Source: a virus
Virus record (IMG/VR): IMGVR_UViG_3300003321_000579
Span: 1-36,066 of that record
Direction: 5' to 3' (one strand)
Length of the DNA: 36,066 bases
This document shows, piece by piece, positions 3,350 through 15,848 of the stretch (position 1 is its first letter; every line of letters starts with the position of its first letter). The notes beneath the pieces were generated by a model, which saw only the letters and a list, made by a program, of their open reading frames with translations, was not told the DNA's origin and did no database searches. A program made the position numbers and the translations under genes.

Positions 3350-4909
3350 TTGTTCGACCCGGTTAAAGCAACCGCGGTCTGCAGATTTTTCGAGCGGATT
3401 CTGGTGCATCCGAAGGAAAGGCTGGCGCCCTTCCTGCTGATTCCCTGGCAGCGCCAGTGGCTCCGTCAGATATTCGGCACCGTCGACGAGGAGGGCATGC
3501 GTGTCATCAAACGCGCATACCTCGAGCTGGCGAAGAAAAACGGCAAGAGCGAAATCGCAGCCGGCATCGCGCTCTATCTCCTGATAGCCGACCAAGAACC
3601 GGCCGCCGAAATCTACCTCGCGGCGACCGCCAAGGAGCAGGCCGGCATCGTGTTCCGGGTCGCTGCGGCCATGGTCGAGGCATCACCGGTGTTGCGGCGC
3701 GAGCTGAAGGTCCTCCGCTCGACAAAGCGCATCGTAAAGCGCAATGACGTGAACAGCTTCCTGGCCGCGGTCAGCGCCGACGGCGGCGTGCAGGACGGCA
3801 TCAACCCCCACGGTGTCATCATCGACGAGCTGCACCGCTGGAAGACAGGCAAGAGCCACGAGCTGCTCGACGTGTTGACCAAGTCAACCATCGCGCGCCG
3901 GCAACCGCTGATCGTCGAAATCACCACAGCGGGCTCGACGCAGGACGAGTCGCCGCTCGCCTGGCTCGAACACGAGCGCACGGTCGCGATCGCCAAGGGG
4001 CTGTTCAGCGACCCTTCGTTTCTGGGCCGGATCTACGCCGCGGACCCGGATGACGACCCGATGCTGCCGGCGACCTGGGCCAAGGCCAACCCTTCGCTCG
4101 ACATCAACGGGGGATTCCTGCGTTCGAGCGTGCTGGCGCGCGCCGCGAAGGAAGCCAAGGACATGCCCCAACTGATGCCTGGCTTCAAGCGCTATCACCT
4201 GGGCATCTGGAGCTCGACCGAAACCGAGTGGATGCCGCTCGAAGCCTGGAAGGCCTGCGGAGGTGAGCGCCGCCCGATAATAGAGCGCGCGTGTTATCTT
4301 GGACTCGATCTAAGCGAGAGAACCGACCTCACTTCCCTGGTTCTGTTGTTTCCGGACGCGGATGGCACTTTTGACGTCCTGCCGTTTTTCTGGATGGCGA
4401 AAGACCGCGTGCGAGAGCGTGAGCTAGGGGACCGGGTTCCCTATGCGACGTGGGCGTCGCAGGGATTCCTGGAGCTGACTGAGGGCGATGTTATCGATCT
4501 CCGCGACGTCAAAAGGAAGATCGCCTGGGCGGCCGATGTCTTTCAGGTCATGGCCGTCGCGTTCGACCCCGCGCATGCGCTGCAGCTCTCAATCGAGCTG
4601 ACTGAGGAGGTGGGGGTTACGTGCATTCCGGTGCCACAGCGCTATACGCACATGAGCGAGCCGACCAAGCAACTGCTCGCCATGACGCTCCAGGGCCGTT
4701 TCCGCCACGAGAATCATCCGCTCCTCAACTGGAACATGAGTTGCCTTCGGGTGCGCTCGGACGGCAACGATTCTGTTCGCCCCGTAAAGCCGAACCGATT
4801 CCAGTCCTCAAAGCGGGTGGACGGCGCGGTGGCCATGATCCTTGCACTCTCGCGAGCGATGTTCCATCGGCCCAGCGTCTACGAGACTCGCGGAATCGTG
4901 AGTGGCTGA
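3350..4909 (+). CDS. Terminase large subunit (HK97-type packaging ATPase/nuclease)
   Basis: 519 residues. The N-terminal ATPase has the Walker A-like AKKNGKSE at 61-68 and Walker B VIIDE at 156-160. The C-terminal nuclease starts with LGLDLSERTD at 318-326, and a further acidic FDP is near 405-407. The motor pumps DNA into the prohead through the portal, and the nuclease cuts concatemers at the packaging site. The frame is closed by a stop at 3314, and TTG at 3350 is the only start codon before conserved sequence begins. No strong ribosome site precedes it, so TTG initiation by coupling from terS is inferred. Confidence 0.95.
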   Translation: MFDPVKATAVCRFFERILVHPKERLAPFLLIPWQRQWLRQIFGTVDEEGMRVIKRAYLELAKKNGKSEIAAGIALYLLIADQEPAAEIYLAATAKEQAGIVFRVAAAMVEASPVLRRELKVLRSTKRIVKRNDVNSFLAAVSADGGVQDGINPHGVIIDELHRWKTGKSHELLDVLTKSTIARRQPLIVEITTAGSTQDESPLAWLEHERTVAIAKGLFSDPSFLGRIYAADPDDDPMLPATWAKANPSLDINGGFLRSSVLARAAKEAKDMPQLMPGFKRYHLGIWSSTETEWMPLEAWKACGGERRPIIERACYLGLDLSERTDLTSLVLLFPDADGTFDVLPFFWMAKDRVRERELGDRVPYATWASQGFLELTEGDVIDLRDVKRKIAWAADVFQVMAVAFDPAHALQLSIELTEEVGVTCIPVPQRYTHMSEPTKQLLAMTLQGRFRHENHPLLNWNMSCLRVRSDGNDSVRPVKPNRFQSSKRVDGAVAMILALSRAMFHRPSVYETRGIVSG

Positions 4910-11110: not shown

Positions 11111-11506
11111 ATGGACATCTCGACCTGGCTGCACCAGATCCTGACGAGCGGCAACCCGACCAGCCTGGGCCAGGCCATCTATGCGCTCATGGCTCCACCG
11201 AAAACCACCGGGCGGCACTGTGTGTTTCAGATTATTGGCAACGAGCCGCTCCTTACCCAGGACACCGAGGCCGACGAAGGCACGCGCATCTGGAAGGTGC
11301 AATTCCGCCAGTTCGCGCCGCGCGAGCAAGACGCGATCGCCGATACCGCCAGCCTCCGAGGCTTCCTGGTTCCCTACCGAGACTGGCCGGCCGCGCACGG
11401 CATCATGCGCGTGCTGCCGATCAACGAAATGGATCTGCCAGTGACCGGCACGGCGCGCCTATTTTGCAGGCTCCTGGAGCTGGAGATCACCGAAAACCTC
11501 TCGTGA
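11111..11506 (+). CDS. Probable tail terminator (DUF3168 / gpU-like)
   Basis: 131 residues. The N-terminal helix MDISTWLHQILTSGNPTSLG is followed by the strand CVFQIIGNEPLLTQ, a variable loop, RIWKVQFRQFAPREQDAIAD, and the C-terminal strand FCRLLELEITENLS. The alternation of a helix pair with strands and the position just after the gp10-like gene match tail-terminator proteins that cap the tail tube. The assignment rests mainly on position and size. It starts after a TAnnnT box and overlaps the glycosyltransferase start by GTGA. Confidence 0.6.
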   Translation: MDISTWLHQILTSGNPTSLGQAIYALMAPPKTTGRHCVFQIIGNEPLLTQDTEADEGTRIWKVQFRQFAPREQDAIADTASLRGFLVPYRDWPAAHGIMRVLPINEMDLPVTGTARLFCRLLELEITENLS

Positions 11507-12243
11507 AGGTGCCAGGGTACATCTCCGTTCCGAAAGCTCCGGGCCCGCCCTCGGTCTGCGGCTTGATGGTGACCGCCAACCGGCCGATGCTTGCCGGCAA
11601 AGTACTCGCGCAGTTCTTAGCGCAGACCTACCCGAACCGTTACCTGCTCATCCTGGACAGCGGCAAGAGAGCCTCACCGCCGCGCAAGATGCAGCTCGAC
11701 GAGCGTGTGCGCCTGGTGCATGTCCCTTCGGTCGCCGCGGCCACCTACGGCGCGCTGATCAATTTGGCCGGGCACCTGGCGATGCGCTGGCTCGGAAGGC
11801 TCGACTACTTCGCGATATTCGATGATGACGACTGGTCGCACCCGCAGAGGATCGAGCACCAGGTGGGAATGCTCGATGCGCTCGGCGGCCGGATCGCCGG
11901 GTATCACTCGATGTATTTCCTCGACGAGCGCGACGGGCGCGCCTGGCGGTTTTCCGGCGAGCCGGGCTATGCGATCGGAGCCTCGCTTATGTTCGACGCG
12001 GTTCTGTGGGCGAAAAAGCCCTGGGCCGACGAGATGATCGGCGCAGACTCCATCTTCCAGCGGGGTGAACGCGTAACCACCGCCGACGGCTGCGACCCGA
12101 TCCGGATGGTCGCGCGAATCCACGCGGAGAGCGTCTGCGCCCGGGCTGGCCACCGACAGATGCGGCGTTACGAGTCGGGCCACGAGCCGTTTGCGCCCGC
12201 GCCTGCGGATGTGGCCGAGCAGCTCCAGCAGCTCCTCTCCTAA
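11503..12243 (+). CDS. Glycosyltransferase family 2-like (GT-A fold), forward
   Basis: 246 residues from GTG overlapping the previous stop. The reading extends upstream to 11464, but conserved sequence begins after the GTG. The N-terminus has CGLMVTANRPMLAGKVLAQF and QTYPNRYLLILDSG, the first two strands of a GT-A fold. DDDDW at 107-111 is the metal- and nucleotide-sugar-binding DxD region. SGEPGYAIGASLMFDAVLW is the typical acceptor-side segment. It should transfer a sugar from an activated donor; acceptor and donor are unknown. It is the first gene of a carbohydrate cargo block inside the tail operon. Confidence 0.85.
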   Translation: MKVPGYISVPKAPGPPSVCGLMVTANRPMLAGKVLAQFLAQTYPNRYLLILDSGKRASPPRKMQLDERVRLVHVPSVAAATYGALINLAGHLAMRWLGRLDYFAIFDDDDWSHPQRIEHQVGMLDALGGRIAGYHSMYFLDERDGRAWRFSGEPGYAIGASLMFDAVLWAKKPWADEMIGADSIFQRGERVTTADGCDPIRMVARIHAESVCARAGHRQMRRYESGHEPFAPAPADVAEQLQQLLS

Positions 12244-12330
12244 GGCGTTTCGCCATCCGAGACGTTACTTTCGGCCTATTCGCCAATGGGCCATCCGGAG
12301 CGAAGCTCAATGGCAGGAGGATGTACCAAC

Positions 12331-12462
12331 ATGACACTTACTTGCGCGATCGTTCTTGGCCTGGTGGCCCTGCGGATCTGGCGGGCGATCGAGCCGGCCT
12401 CGCACCGCCGCATCGGCTCGACCGACAATCCGATGTACACGCCCGAGGAGCAGGAACGATGA
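12331..12462 (+). CDS. 43-residue membrane micro-protein
   Basis: ATG preceded by GGCAGGAGG about 10 nt upstream. Residues 3-20 (LTCAIVLGLVALRIWRAI) form one hydrophobic helix, followed by a basic then acidic hydrophilic tail ending EEQER. A type III or N-in single-span membrane peptide is likely. Its stop overlaps the next start (ATGA). It lies directly after a glycosyltransferase, so it could anchor or assist that enzyme, but there is no direct evidence. Confidence 0.6.
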   Translation: MTLTCAIVLGLVALRIWRAIEPASHRRIGSTDNPMYTPEEQER

Positions 12463-12635
12463 AGCCCGGCTCGCCCCTGCACTTCGAAGCACTGGCTGCC
12501 GCGGTCGCCAGCGCGCTCGCCAGGCCGGCGCTCGACAGCCCGCTGATCGCTCCGGACGGCCGGCCATTCACCCGCGCCGAGGTCGATTGGCGCACAGGCG
12601 CGATTCGCTGGACAACGTACGTGCCGCCCTGCTAA
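12459..12635 (+). CDS. Small protein of unknown function (58 residues)
   Basis: ATG overlaps the previous stop and has GAGGAGCAGG upstream. The sequence has an alanine-rich helix (FEALAAAVASALARPAL) and a C-terminal strand region (RAEVDWRTGAIRWTTYVPPC). Not recognised. It is the last forward gene before the bidirectional terminator region and is co-translated with the membrane micro-protein. Confidence 0.6.
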   Translation: MKPGSPLHFEALAAAVASALARPALDSPLIAPDGRPFTRAEVDWRTGAIRWTTYVPPC

Positions 12636-12668
12636 GCTAGCGCGCGGTGACAGTTGGCGTTTGGGTGC

Positions 12669-12706
12669 AAAGCGCTCGACCCGGTCAGGGTCGAGCGCTT
12701 TTGCTT
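12669..12706 (+). terminator. Strong intrinsic terminator between convergent genes
   Basis: A 14-bp perfect stem (AAAGCGCTCGACCC at 12669-12682 with its complement at 12688-12701) closes a GGTCA loop and is followed by TTGCTTTTGG. It ends the forward transcript. The reverse glycosyltransferase stop codon lies in the loop, so the same hairpin may also help stop the reverse transcript, although the reverse tail is only TTTG. Confidence 0.85.
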
Positions 12707-13404
12707 TTGGCGCGCTCACGCTCGTCCATCCTGGCCATGCTGGCGGCGCGCTGGGCCGGCGACATGACGCGTAGGAACGAGCTGGAGAAGGGCAACTGTC
12801 CGGGCAGACCGTGGCGAACGCACAGGGCGCGCGTGATCGCCAGCTTCCAGCCTTTCTGCTGCGCTCGCCGGCAGTAGTCGGTGTCGTCGCCGCCATACCC
12901 TGTGAAGCCTTCGTCGAGCTGCCCCACCTGGGCGACCATCTCGCGTCGAAGCATGACGCAGATGAAGGGAATCCGCTCCTCGCTGAGTACGACGGTGTCG
13001 CGGCGCTGGCCGGCTTGCCGGATCTGCAGGGCGTTGCCGGTCGCCGGTACCTCGCGGCCGTCCGCGCTGAGGCCGTAGACCATCGGCGCGGCGATTCCGA
13101 CCTGCGGATTGTCCTGGAGGACGGCTTCCAGGCCGGTCACAAGCGGGGCCTCAAGCCGCACGTCATCGTTCACCAGCAGAATGTGTCCGCCGTGGTCCCA
13201 TGCCAAGCGAATCGCAAGATTCGCATTGCGGGAGAAGATGAACGGAGCAGGTCCGGCGATCGCTCGCCAGCCCGGGCGTTCCACTTCAAATCCGCGGCTG
13301 GTAACAATCACCTTCGGCTCTTGCATGTGGAAGCGCTCGACCGACTCGGCAAAGCCCTCGAACAGATCCGGGAAGCCGCTCAACGTGCAGATTGTGGAGG
13401 CCAC
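12685..13404 (-). CDS. Glycosyltransferase family 2, reverse
   Basis: 239 residues from GTG, with AAGGAG 8 nt upstream on the reverse strand. Features in order: MASTICTLSGFPDLFEGFAE, FIFSRNANLAIRLAWDHGG, the DxD-like LLVNDDVRLEAPL (NDDV at 79-82), and FICVMLRREMVAQVGQLDEG. The rhamnosyltransferase-like GYGGDDTDYCRRAQQKGWKL follows near 169-188, supplying the catalytic-base region. The first 24 nt overlap the end of the upstream reverse glycosyltransferase, so the two are coupled. The pair runs against the otherwise forward structural operon. Confidence 0.87.
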   Translation of the reverse strand: MASTICTLSGFPDLFEGFAESVERFHMQEPKVIVTSRGFEVERPGWRAIAGPAPFIFSRNANLAIRLAWDHGGHILLVNDDVRLEAPLVTGLEAVLQDNPQVGIAAPMVYGLSADGREVPATGNALQIRQAGQRRDTVVLSEERIPFICVMLRREMVAQVGQLDEGFTGYGGDDTDYCRRAQQKGWKLAITRALCVRHGLPGQLPFSSSFLRVMSPAQRAASMARMDERERAKSKSARP

Positions 13405-14129
13405 AGTGAAAGCTCCTTTGTGCTTGCCAGCTCGAAGCGTTCGATGCCGGCGTATTGGACATGCCAGGCGCGCGCCAGTTCCGCGGCCGCATAGCGCTCG
13501 CGGCGCGCCTTCAGCTTCCGGACGGCGTGGGCCGTCGACCGGAAGGGATAGTGCTTCAGTACGAAGTTTTCCGGGAAGATCTTACGTCCTTCGAAGAGCG
13601 CTTCGTGGCCGCCCTGCGTGTGAAGGTCGACGAGCTGGCCTGGCCGCTGCAGCCAGGCCTTGACGTGTGGCAAGCGGCCATCGACCCGCGGCACTCGGTA
13701 CCACCGGAAGTGCGCGGCCGGATCTCCGCGGTAGTCGTCGTTGACGGGCGGAAATTCAAACACCTTGAAACGCACGGCGTTAAAGCCCTGCTCCTCGACC
13801 CAGCGCAGCGCGCCGTCGAGCAGCGCTCCAAGCCATTCAAGCGGTGGCGTGCGGATCTCGTCCGCGTCGTGGAAGAGGACCCAACCCTGGCGCTCTCTGG
13901 CGATGGCGGCGATGCGCTTGAGCATGCCCGTCCAGTCCCAAGACGAGTCGGGCCCGGCAGCCGGGTATCGCTCGCGGCGGCCGAAGTTCCTGGCGATCTC
14001 CCAACTGGCGTCGGTGCTCCAGTTGTCGAGGACGTGCACATCGCACCCGTTCGCGCGGAGGTGTGCGAGCGTCCACTGGAGGATGTCGGCCTCGTTGTAG
14101 ACTGGCACGATCGCAAGAGGAGGTCGCAT
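13380..14129 (-). CDS. Glycosyltransferase family 2 (Glyco_tranf_2_4-like), reverse
   Basis: 249 residues from ATG at 14129 (an in-frame start at 14150 exists but lies upstream of the TAnnnT box). The N-terminus PLAIVPVYNEADILQWTLAH and CDVHVLDNWSTDASWEIARN is a classic GT-2 nucleotide-binding fold. HDADE at 87-91 is the DxD motif. The C-terminal half has HFRWYRVPRV and FVLKHYPFRSTAHAVRKLKA, as in lipopolysaccharide- or glycan-acting relatives. It starts nose-to-nose with the methyltransferase on the other strand, 2 nt apart. There is no ribosome site; TATCTT lies 8 nt upstream of the ATG. Confidence 0.87.
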   Translation of the reverse strand: MRPPLAIVPVYNEADILQWTLAHLRANGCDVHVLDNWSTDASWEIARNFGRRERYPAAGPDSSWDWTGMLKRIAAIARERQGWVLFHDADEIRTPPLEWLGALLDGALRWVEEQGFNAVRFKVFEFPPVNDDYRGDPAAHFRWYRVPRVDGRLPHVKAWLQRPGQLVDLHTQGGHEALFEGRKIFPENFVLKHYPFRSTAHAVRKLKARRERYAAAELARAWHVQYAGIERFELASTKELSLWPPQSAR

Positions 14130-14130
14130 A

Positions 14131-14736
14131 GTGATCGAAGATACCAGCACGGCGCCTTACATCCTGGACGATGGCGGCGCGCTCGATTATGACCGATGCC
14201 CGGACTGCTGGGAGAAGCGAGCCCACCTCGAGCGCTACCAGTTCGCCGCCCTGGTTGCCGGCCCCGAGCGCAAGATCCTCGACTTCGGCTGCGGCGTCGG
14301 CTATGGCACGGCCCTGCTGCGTTCTTGCGGCCACAGCGTGCTTGGAGTAGACACCTCGGAGCAGGCCATGCGGCTCGCGGAGGAGCGTTATGGCATGGTG
14401 GGGTTTCAGCGGTTGCAGATCCGGCCCACGGAGACCGCGCTGCGCGCATTGGCCCGAACGGCCCACTTCGATATCTGCTGCGCCTTGGAGGTGTTGGAGC
14501 ACTTGGAGCGACCCGAGCTGTTTCTGCAGGTCGCCGCCCGGACCATTCCGGAGCTGGTCGTCAGTGTTCCGGTCATTCCTACGGTCGGAGTAAACCCGCA
14601 CCACCGGCACGATTTCACGATCGACTCCTTCCGGGATCTGGTCGGGCGCTTCTACCGCGAAGCCTGGTGGTGGATTCAGGTCCGACCGTTCCACCATGCC
14701 CCGAGCATTTGCATCATCCACGGAGTCAGGAGGTGA
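14131..14736 (+). CDS. Class I SAM-dependent methyltransferase
   Basis: 201 residues from GTG, with AGAGGAGG at 14116-14123, 7 nt upstream. Motif I ILDFGCGVGYGTALL (49-63) binds SAM. SVLGVDTSEQAMRLAEERYG is motif II, and FDICCALEVLEHLERPELFL is motif IV with the following helix, as in small-molecule or glycan methyltransferases. The C-terminus has NPHHRHDFTIDSFRDL, common in Methyltransf_23-type proteins that act on sugars or lipids. Next to three glycosyltransferases, methylation of a glycan is the obvious inference. The stop overlaps the next micro-ORF (GTGA). Confidence 0.87.
   Translation: MIEDTSTAPYILDDGGALDYDRCPDCWEKRAHLERYQFAALVAGPERKILDFGCGVGYGTALLRSCGHSVLGVDTSEQAMRLAEERYGMVGFQRLQIRPTETALRALARTAHFDICCALEVLEHLERPELFLQVAARTIPELVVSVPVIPTVGVNPHHRHDFTIDSFRDLVGRFYREAWWWIQVRPFHHAPSICIIHGVRR
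14138..14143 (-). promoter_or_regulatory. Reverse TAnnnT box for a leaderless start
   Basis: On the reverse strand TATCTT ends 8 nt before the ATG at 14129. It lies inside the first codons of the forward methyltransferase, so each divergent gene contains the other's start signals. Confidence 0.5.
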
Positions 14737-14870
14737 CGTCCCGGTGGCCACCGCGCGGCCGCTGGGTCTTGATCCGTACCCGACGCCCGCTGCGGCTGAT
14801 TATCTACACCGGGTGGTGCCGGTTCGAGGATCTGGTCGCCGACATCTGGCGCGCGCTGTGCCTGCGCTGA
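14733..14870 (+). CDS. 45-residue basic micro-ORF
   Basis: GTG overlaps the methyltransferase stop, with AGGAG just upstream. The product is Arg/Trp rich (SRWPPRGRWVLIRTRRPLRL) with an amphipathic C-terminus (FEDLVADIWRALCLR). Not recognised. Coupling to the methyltransferase makes translation plausible, but the sequence has no family support. Confidence 0.4.
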   Translation: MTSRWPPRGRWVLIRTRRPLRLIIYTGWCRFEDLVADIWRALCLR

Positions 14871-14890: not shown

Positions 14891-15151
14891 ATGCGATGCC
14901 GTTGCAAGTTCGTCGTGAGAGAAGTCACTGCCTACACCAAGAACACGCCCGAGACGGCCAAGGCCGCCGATGCCTATTTCATGCGGCGGGTTAAGCTGGA
15001 CGCGCAGTACGACGACGGCCTCAGCAAGGAGAACGCCTCCTTCGCGAGGGCCACGCCGTCCGGAACGATCGAGTTCACCTGGGATAACCCCAACGTGAAT
15101 TTCGAGCCGGGCGACGTTCTCTACGTCGATTTCACCCCTGCTCCGAAATAG
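14891..15151 (+). CDS. Conserved small phage protein (86 residues)
   Basis: The pattern MRCRCKFVVREVTAY, then KLDAQYDD, ENASFARATPSGTIEFTWDN and GDVLYVDFTPA is one I recognise from many phages and prophages, where it lies near tail genes. Its function is not known. It looks all-beta. An ATG at 14873 in the same frame is upstream of the TAnnnT box, so I chose 14891. The gene is followed by a long stem-loop and an independent promoter for the tail tube. Confidence 0.8.
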   Translation: MRCRCKFVVREVTAYTKNTPETAKAADAYFMRRVKLDAQYDDGLSKENASFARATPSGTIEFTWDNPNVNFEPGDVLYVDFTPAPK

Positions 15152-15158
15152 CAGGGAT

Positions 15159-15214
15159 CGGGGGGCTGTTCGAGACCGCCGGCTTTTGGCCTGTCCGTCG
15201 AACAGCCGACCCCG
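15159..15214 (+). terminator. Long stem-loop before the tail-tube gene
   Basis: GGCTGTTCGA (15164-15173) pairs with TCGAACAGCC (15198-15207). Outer CGGGG (15159-15163) and CCCCG (15210-15214) extend the stem with a 2-nt bulge. There is no U tract, so termination is uncertain; it may be a transcript-stabilising or attenuating structure. The 214-nt gap to the tail-tube gene also holds a TATACT box, and nothing else is recognisable in it. Confidence 0.5.
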
Positions 15215-15262
15215 AGTGAACCGCCTCAAATCAGATCGAAAAACAGGAAGCCCTCTCTGCGT

Positions 15263-15268
15263 TATACT
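15263..15268 (+). promoter_or_regulatory. Candidate promoter -10 for the tail-tube gene
   Basis: TATACT lies 97 nt upstream of the tail-tube ATG. No good -35 was found. It would give a ~95-nt leader, in contrast to the leaderless sites elsewhere. AATCG/CGATT short pairing near 15340 is the only structure seen in that leader. Confidence 0.35.
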
Positions 15269-15365
15269 TTCGGCTGATCTTCCCGGAGCTGGCGCGCCGC
15301 GACGATCCCCTCGGGACTGGCGCGCTCGGGGCAACTAATCGACAAGCGATTGGGGGCCACTCCGG

Positions 15366-15848
15366 ATGAACGTCAAGTACGCGTCGCAGAACACTTTCCT
15401 TTGGATCGGCGATGGCGGATCGCCGACCGAACAATTCTTCAAGGTTCTCGGGCTCGAAGACATCACGCTGCCAGCCATCAAGGCCAGCGTGCTGGACGTC
15501 AGCTCGCAGGATGAGACCGACCACTATTTCGATTACATCTCCACGATGATCGACAGTGGCGAGGCCAAATTTCCGATCCTGCTCGACCCGAACGAGGAGA
15601 GCCAGAACGAAACGGCTACTGTCGTGGGCACGAAGGCGGGTGGTCTCAAATATCTGCTGGACCAGCGCGCCAAGCGCAACATGCGGATCGAGTTCTCCTA
15701 CACCTCGCCCGTTTGCCGGCTCGCATTCCAGGGCGTCGTGGTGGGTTTCGAGGGCCAAGCGCCCGTGAAAGGCGCCCTGCGCGCGACCGTGACGATCAAG
15801 GTCATGAAGAAGACCACGCTCCAGGTCGGCACCGGATCCGGCGCTTAG
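15366..15848 (+). CDS. Major tail (tube) protein
   Basis: 160 residues. The N-terminus (YASQNTFLWIGDGGSPTEQF) is followed by the DVSSQDETDHYFDYISTMID loop region, EAKFPILLDPNEESQNE, and FSYTSPVCRLAFQGVVVGFE, then KGALRATVTIKVMKK. Size, the 'ITLPAIKASVLDVSSQDETD' pattern and position before the tail chaperones and tape measure match the tube-forming proteins of long-tailed phages. It is isolated by non-coding DNA on its upstream side and should be among the most abundant virion proteins. Confidence 0.88.
   Translation: MNVKYASQNTFLWIGDGGSPTEQFFKVLGLEDITLPAIKASVLDVSSQDETDHYFDYISTMIDSGEAKFPILLDPNEESQNETATVVGTKAGGLKYLLDQRAKRNMRIEFSYTSPVCRLAFQGVVVGFEGQAPVKGALRATVTIKVMKKTTLQVGTGSGA

Follow-up and report, generated by a model that had tools for sequence, protein, structure and literature searches.

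Genes located between the tail terminator and tail tube genes

The window (the whole 36,066-nucleotide stretch of viral DNA analysed, IMG/VR record IMGVR_UViG_3300003321_000579) carries an enzyme block at 11503–14736 that encodes three glycosyltransferases (GT1, GT2 and GT3) and a methyltransferase (MT). The block and its flanks contain the following features:

11111–11506, plus strand: tail terminator, left flank; assigned mainly by position (own match to phrog_347 not significant, E 0.47)
11503–12243, plus strand: GT1, GT-2 family glycosyltransferase (PF00535, 25.6 bits, cut-off 23.3)
12331–12462, plus strand: 43-aa ORF, possible single TM helix (KD 1.75; codon log-odds 0.32); coding status uncertain
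12459–12635, plus strand: 58-aa ORF (codon log-odds 0.26); coding status uncertain
12669–12701, plus strand: strong terminator-like hairpin, 14-bp perfect stem followed by TGCTTTT, overlapping the 3' end of GT2
12685–13404, minus strand: GT2, GT-A glycosyltransferase, galactosyl/GalNAc transferase-like (PF02709, Glyco_transf_7C, 23.1 bits, marginal to the cut-off of 23)
13380–14150, minus strand: GT3, GT-2 family, polypeptide-GT-like (PF00535, 34.5 bits, cut-off 23.3; PF13704)
14131–14736, plus strand: MT, class I SAM methyltransferase (Methyltransf_11, 47.5 bits)
14733–14870, plus strand: 45-aa ORF overlapping the MT stop (codon log-odds 0.19); coding status uncertain
14891–15151, plus strand: 86-aa protein in the gap between the cassette and the tail tube gene (phrog_6978, C-terminal part, E 9.3e-8; codon log-odds 0.46)
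15366–15848, plus strand: tail tube protein, right flank (phrog_158 major tail protein, E 3.2e-8)

A first-pass annotation had placed a glycosyltransferase and methyltransferase set between the tail terminator and tail tube genes, and this was borne out, including the single SAM methyltransferase and the two glycosyltransferases running against the operon. Tail terminator profiles match the positional equivalents of the left-flank protein in three related loci (L026, L017 and L036) better than the window protein itself. The slot was also said to be normally compact, and it measures 22 bp in a relative (L007). All three glycosyltransferases had been assigned to the GT-2 family, which is correct for GT1 and GT3, but GT2 does not exceed the PF00535 cut-off and matches PF02709. 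Three micro-proteins, one membrane-spanning, had been described as well; a TM-like segment is present in the ORF at 12331 only, and the ORFs at 12331, 12459 and 14733 have weaker codon scores and no homologue in any fetched locus. The small gene 3' of the block (14891–15151) is better supported than these.

The four enzyme ORFs are open and intact, with coding-like GC3 (0.78–0.83) and 0.35–0.39 log-odds per codon versus 0.08–0.15 for the ORFs antisense to GT2 and GT3; their catalytic motifs are also conserved. An assembly or insertion artefact was ruled out by the recurrence of the enzymes with their partners in independent contigs and by the GC3 of the block, which is in line with that of the phage, though no independent contig confirms the exact GT3/MT junction. 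GT1 starts at the GTG at 11503 with a 4-nt overlap with the upstream stop, the ribosome site of MT (AGGAGGT) falls within antisense GT3, and the start of GT3 is more likely the ATG at 14129, which would give MRPPLAIVP as in a homologue. Elsewhere in the window, a TGA within the terminase match lies in sequence that is in frame but precedes the likely start at 3350, and was ruled out as an anomaly.

Strand switch and transcription signals

The hairpin at 12669–12701 has a predicted stability of -30.7 kcal/mol (z -4.7; minus strand z -7.5). Terminator-like sites are, as a class, no more frequent in the window than expected (3 found, 3.5 expected), so the proposed strong terminator between the strands rests on the stability of this hairpin, which supports it. 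Because GT2 and GT3 run against the late operon and GT1 is followed by a terminator, simple co-transcription fails in the window. No promoter was found with a sigma-70 scan. The motif TTATACTTTCGG was considered as a conserved promoter 5' of the tail tube gene, and this was dropped because the motif shows no enrichment and G002, the closest complete relative, has no visible counterpart. The inverted repeats flanking the GT2–GT3 inversion are no more than short, imperfect or chance-like pairs, and no inversion mechanism is therefore proposed.

Predicted activities of the four enzymes

GT1 contains a GT-A fold domain with a conserved DxD-type motif (DDDD, invariant), and its profile resembles SpsA, heparosan synthase and chondroitin synthase. 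GT2 has a conserved NDD motif and a profile match to b4GalT7, and structure prediction and searching, which had been suggested as a check, gave a model (pLDDT 89.6) resembling B4GALNT1 and polypeptide GalNAc-Ts. In four loci or genomes (G002, L015, L017 and L022) GT2 is fused to GT3, and these fused homologues score below the PF02709 cut-off. The MT carries the conserved motif DxGCGxGxG, and its profile relatives include UbiG, MitM, a D-glucose O-methyltransferase and, distantly, the O-antigen enzyme WbdD.

GT3, likewise a GT-A enzyme, has a conserved DxD-type motif (DADE), and in the PDB its profile matched only the flagellin GlcNAc transferase GmaR and the S-glycosyltransferases SunS and ThuS at E<=0.01 (E 1.2e-5 to 4.8e-4, N-terminal half only). 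SunS was also the best Foldseek match to the GT3 model (pLDDT 93), followed by ThuS. However, identity to SunS, ThuS and GmaR is 10–17% over the fold and the C-terminal parts differ. As the PDB matches cover the N-terminal half only, and as the sugar-acceptor enzymes GalS1 and WrtF rank level with ThuS for the GT3 model in VIA-align, these profile and model comparisons are only suggestive of a polypeptide acceptor.

Recurrence and mobility of the cassette

Searches with the tail tube protein or GT3 as single queries recovered no relatives among viral contigs, and alignment queries were needed. GT3 was found in 32 viral loci. It is carried by 18 lineages of environmental virus contigs, and within 6 kb of it were homologues of GT2 in 15, GT1 in 10 and MT in 6 of the 18. 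An MT-only query returned 10 loci (2 lineages, one already known), all 10 also carrying GT3, and every viral MT homologue adjoins GT3. Related sets therefore recur in the corresponding part of many environmental phage genomes. Together with the profiles, conserved motifs and models, this recurrence backs the reading of the block as a glycan-building and methylating set.

A homologous structural gene lies within 6 kb of GT3 in 12 of the 18 lineages, on the same strand in 11, and was not detectable with the queries used in 5; L044 (at terL) and probably L048 adjoin terminase genes. The cassettes thus usually lie with genes for the head, neck or tail and share their strand, and the inverted GT2–GT3 pair of the window is an exception. 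Slots identified by profile are MCP/adaptor, head closure/tail terminator, terminator/tube, upstream of terS, and terL/portal (L046). In G002 (MCP 71%) a GT1 homologue is kept in the terminator/tube slot (L004, 6913–7641), and MT and a fused GT3–GT2 lie directly upstream of terS.

The GT3 and terminase trees disagree, indicating that the cassettes move between phages. A clade of window and G002 sequences was rejected for GT3 by the AU test (p 0.016); for MT the test was not significant (p 0.084). dN/dS values of 0.11–0.24 indicate purifying selection in the relatives.

GT3 is not confined to viruses, as profile searches of two bacterial phyla detected it in 10 of 396 and 9 of 396 genomes. Where the neighbourhood could be read, the bacterial copies were accompanied by neither the cassette nor phage genes, and in the GT3 tree all bacterial copies lie outside the two main groups of phage sequences. 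The identical host-encoded genes that might have pointed to a chance assembly were thus not found in the two phyla sampled.

Comparison with known systems

To our knowledge, very few phages, most of them mycobacteriophages, have been shown to carry glycosylated virion proteins. The cassette appeared unfamiliar because GT1, GT2 and GT3 went unmatched across 50,697 phage records (E 1e-5; 1e-3 for the fused GT3–GT2). However, the suggestion that the combination is new was not upheld, as Corndogvirus Krili encodes an O-methyltransferase and three GTs in tandem (gp32–35) between the portal and capsid protease genes, a set of similar size within the head-tail cluster. The Krili set differs in having a TylF-like rather than a Methyltransf_11 methyltransferase, in including a GT25-type enzyme, which the window lacks, and in its portal/protease slot without inversion. 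No family-level homology was found between the window GT1–3 and MT families and Krili gp32–35. The window enzymes are, by sequence, not orthologous to the Corndogvirus set, but the same kind of cassette is already known there.

Virion protein glycosylation has been reported for Che8, Corndog and Myrna (PMC12363180; PMC12619734), and the Corndog GT gp38 is reported to be essential for capsid glycosylation (PMC12363180). The gp108–110 region of Che8 (cluster F1 mycobacteriophages) likewise includes three GTs and a methyltransferase domain: gp108 is a fusion of a GT2 domain and a TylF-like MT, with two further GTs alongside. The N-terminal domain of gp108 is distantly homologous to GT1 (E 3.3e-5 at Z 25000), the only significant match of the four families to gp108–110 or Krili gp32–35. 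In Che8, however, the set is at the 3' end of the genome, the MT is fused to a GT, gp110 is a GT25 enzyme and GT3 has no counterpart. The window thus shares with the Corndog and Che8 systems three GTs and one methyltransferase encoded together, but not orthologous enzymes (GT25 gp110/gp38, gp109 and the TylF-like MT). Two uncultured phages, GX15bay (mangrove soil) and MW202713 (spring water), also carry at least one GT and a methyltransferase next to a terminase gene, but identity is ~30% over part of one enzyme and the gene sets are larger or different.

Proposed role in virion decoration

Three targets had been offered for the glycan, namely virion proteins, the host surface and phage DNA, and the first is favoured over the other two because of the late-operon position, the polypeptide-GT profile matches of GT3, the absence of thymidylate-synthase and GtrA homologues and the presence of an integrase in just one of 23 cassette records; Corndogvirus provides the precedent. 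The gene content, models and comparative analyses suggest, with a probability of roughly 60%, that the cassette is a mobile virion-decoration set expressed with the late genes, which would place a methylated glycan on a virion protein. In this model, GT3 would add the initial sugar to an amino acid side chain, probably in one of the abundant virion subunits, for instance the tail tube (15366–15848) or capsid protein. GT2 and GT1 would then extend the chain with hexose or HexNAc from host nucleotide sugars, and the MT would cap it by O-methylation, the order of the sugars and the methylated position being part of this proposal. The methylated glycan may shield or re-tune the particle surface.

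Modification of the host cell surface late in infection, where a polysaccharide or lipid glycan would be altered, for example to keep new virions from binding to debris or to shut out competing phages, is an unlikely alternative even though enzymes of the GT-2 and class I MT families often take part in making surface polysaccharides. The GT1 and MT relatives include such enzymes (SpsA, the chondroitin and heparosan synthases and, distantly, WbdD), and pelagimyophage GTs in a host-recognition region near structural genes have been interpreted as host-surface modifying (PMC7029224). However, O-antigen conversion of the gtr type involves a GtrA flippase and a membrane-anchored GtrB, whereas GtrA (PF04138) is absent from 23 of 23 cassette records and GT1–3 have no clear membrane-anchor segment. 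With an integrase in one of the 23 records, many of which are fragments, lysogenic conversion is unlikely for most.

It is less probable still that the glycan goes to some other small protein encoded by the cassette, either secreted or associated with the virion, instead of to the capsid or tail tube. Small genes do travel in or near the cassettes (14891–15151 in the window), and Tat-like or signal-anchor N-termini are seen in L016, L043 and L026, but these genes are not conserved between lineages, the window micro-ORFs lack homologues and the Tat match does not reach the cut-off (E 0.019). Glycosylation of modified phage bases by the GTs, with the MT methylating the sugar, is very improbable: glycosylation of DNA by phage GTs is well established (work cited in PMC12619734) and the window encodes a ParB/DNA methyltransferase fusion (phrog_498), but the cassette lies in the morphogenesis region away from replication genes and no thymidylate-synthase/hydroxymethylase homologue (PF00303), searched for as the marker of the hydroxymethyl-pyrimidine route, was found in the 23 records.

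A broader reading, put tentatively at a little under even odds, is that glycosylation of virion proteins is a widespread trait of uncultivated environmental phages, conferred by an exchangeable set of GT1, GT2, GT3 and MT that moves between head-neck-tail slots and includes a polypeptide GT family unseen in isolated phages. If the cassettes do decorate virions, glycosylated particles would occur in many unrelated environmental siphovirus-like lineages, and the cassettes would offer defined genes with which to probe the role of a phage glycan coat outside animals as well as a collection of new, compact GT and MT enzymes. The C-terminal Ser/Thr residues of the MCP and tail tube protein were also looked at as candidate acceptor sites, in very few sequences.

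Gene content of the cassette region

The virus record of 36,066 bases includes a morphogenesis gene set made up of terS, terL, portal, protease, major capsid protein (MCP), connector, tail tube, tape measure and minor tail genes. Genes for three glycosyltransferases (GT1, GT2 and GT3) and a methyltransferase (MT), together the cassette, were found between the tail terminator and tail tube genes:

11111-11506, tail terminator, left of the cassette (label mostly positional)
11503-12243, + strand, GT1
12685-13404, - strand, GT2
13380-14150, - strand, GT3
14131-14736, + strand, MT (SAM methyltransferase)
15366-15848, tail tube, right of the cassette

The profile match of the tail-terminator protein itself was not significant, and its positional equivalents on the environmental contigs L026, L017 and L036 matched tail-terminator profiles. 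The four cassette enzymes match this phage's own coding genes in composition, their codon scores exceed those of the antisense frames at GT2 and GT3, and their catalytic motifs are retained in alignments of homologues. There is a 25-nt overlap between GT2 and GT3, the probable start of GT3 is the ATG at 14129, and the AGGAGGT ribosome site of MT lies within the antisense GT3. No homologue was found for the micro-ORFs at 12331, 12459 and 14733, putative genes that should be regarded as unproven. An 86-aa protein (14891-15151), encoded immediately 5' of the tail tube gene, matched phrog_6978 over no more than the C-terminal 60 of its 284 positions.

A hairpin at 12669-12701, with a 14-bp perfect stem followed by TGCTTTT (-30.7 kcal/mol, z -4.7), is located right after + strand genes and within the end of GT2, where it would protect GT2-GT3 against head-on transcription. 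Given this position, MT and the tail genes would depend on read-through or another promoter, and a sigma-70 scan identified no promoter for them. The tail tube gene is preceded by a 215-bp gap with two features that may be regulatory, a further strong hairpin (15157-15222; -38.7 kcal/mol, z -2.9) and, at 15262-15273, the motif TTATACTTTCGG; neither is conserved in G002, the closest complete relative.

Recurrence of the cassette in other phage genomes

G002 and a second relative, G001, are identical in sequence across the tested region, and their MCP is 71% identical to that of the window. The two ends of G002 share 164 bp (98.8%), so this ~37.9-kb genome is probably complete and circularly permuted. 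In G002, GT1 occupies the same terminator/tube slot, but MT and a GT3-GT2 fusion of 521 aa are encoded immediately 5' of terS. Identity to the window enzymes is 36% (GT1), 47% (GT2), 49% (GT3) and 49% (MT). Upstream of terS, at 989-2356, the window also encodes a fusion of a ParB-like domain with a type II DNA methyltransferase (phrog_498; PADLOC MTase_II). L035 likewise has a homologue upstream of terS, and in G002 a homologue precedes the MT-GT cassette.

Searching viral sequences with the GT3 alignment recovered 32 loci, and the MT alignment recovered 10, each of them with GT3 as well. The loci were grouped into 18 lineages. Of these, 15 have GT2 no more than 6 kb from GT3, 10 have GT1 and six have MT at that distance. 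Twelve have a homologous structural gene equally near, and in 11 of them it shares the strand; the exception is the inverted GT2-GT3 pair of the window, seen in no other of the 18 lineages. Slots identified using profiles were MCP/adaptor, head closure/tail terminator, terminator/tube, upstream of terS and terL/portal (L046), and the L044 cassette adjoins a terminase gene. In L007, a relative that lacks the cassette, the terminator/tube gap is 22 bp. The GT3 homologue in the L046 slot (942-1754) is split into several frames, one piece being 74% identical to window GT3.

Exchange, selection and comparison with known phages

The window and G002 grouped together in the TerL tree (96/96), and G002 grouped with L017 and L015 in the GT3 tree. 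A single clade of window and G002 GT3 was rejected (AU p 0.016); the AU test for grouping their MTs was not significant (p 0.084). L015 and L026 have nearly identical terminases and share ~82% identity over 5.5 kb, but carry differing GT3 subfamilies in the common MCP/adaptor slot (L015:6168-8792; L026:6808-10792), a sign of cassette swapping. Among relatives, dN/dS for GT3 and GT3-GT2 was 0.11-0.24.

Phage and bacterial sequences were strongly separated in the GT3 tree (2 label changes versus 13 in shuffles), which does not equate to a single phage origin, and no bacterial sequence fell within the two main phage groups. Bacterial GT3 homologues occurred in ~2.5% of sampled genomes, from two phyla, and their readable neighbourhoods included neither the cassette nor phage genes. 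No phage among 50,697 records matched GT1, GT2 or GT3, and queries with MT or a related GT3 gave only weak matches to two uncultured phages with GT/MT clusters adjoining terminase.

Mycobacteriophages Che8, Corndog and Myrna have been reported to glycosylate virion proteins using their own glycosyltransferases, with glycans on the capsid and tail tube (PMC12363180; PMC12619734; PMC11256854). Three glycosyltransferases and a methyltransferase domain are contained in Che8 gp108-110. Krili (Corndogvirus) carries O-MT, GT, GT, GT in the portal/protease slot, hence the composition of the window cassette and the principle of its placement are already known. The enzymes of the window are not orthologous to these, the single, distant link being between GT1 and gp108. 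The window cassette is therefore a new form, exchangeable and environmentally recurrent, of an established type.

Predicted function

Among solved structures, the GT3 profile matched only GmaR, SunS and ThuS (E 1e-5 to 5e-4). GmaR glycosylates flagellin, and SunS and ThuS glycosylate peptides. SunS and ThuS were also the top Foldseek matches of the GT3 model (pLDDT 93), and VIA-align ranked other GT-A enzymes level. The GT2 model (pLDDT 89.6) resembles B4GALNT1 and polypeptide GalNAc transferases, and its profile b4GalT7; GT1 resembles SpsA and chondroitin/heparosan synthases. MT groups with UbiG, MitM, a D-glucose O-methyltransferase and WbdD. In 23 virus records with the cassette, many of them fragments, no thymidylate-synthase or GtrA homologue was present, and one carried an integrase. 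The most economical reading is that the cassette assembles a protein-linked, methyl-capped glycan on virion subunits, which would be made during late gene expression; we infer its acceptor, sugars and benefit to the phage.

Near their GT cassettes, L016 (12192-12566; Pfam match below cut-off) and L043 (10514-11074; no Pfam match) encode small proteins of the late region whose N-termini resemble Tat signals (MNRRDILKLFG...). Bigger glycan islands, with extra GTs and one Methyltransf_24 protein, are syntenic between two phages (L029:3633-8441; L031:8369-15454). In L022 (8754-9995), a radical SAM and B12-binding protein is encoded immediately 5' of a fused GT3-GT2, suggesting additional modification of the glycan or protein.
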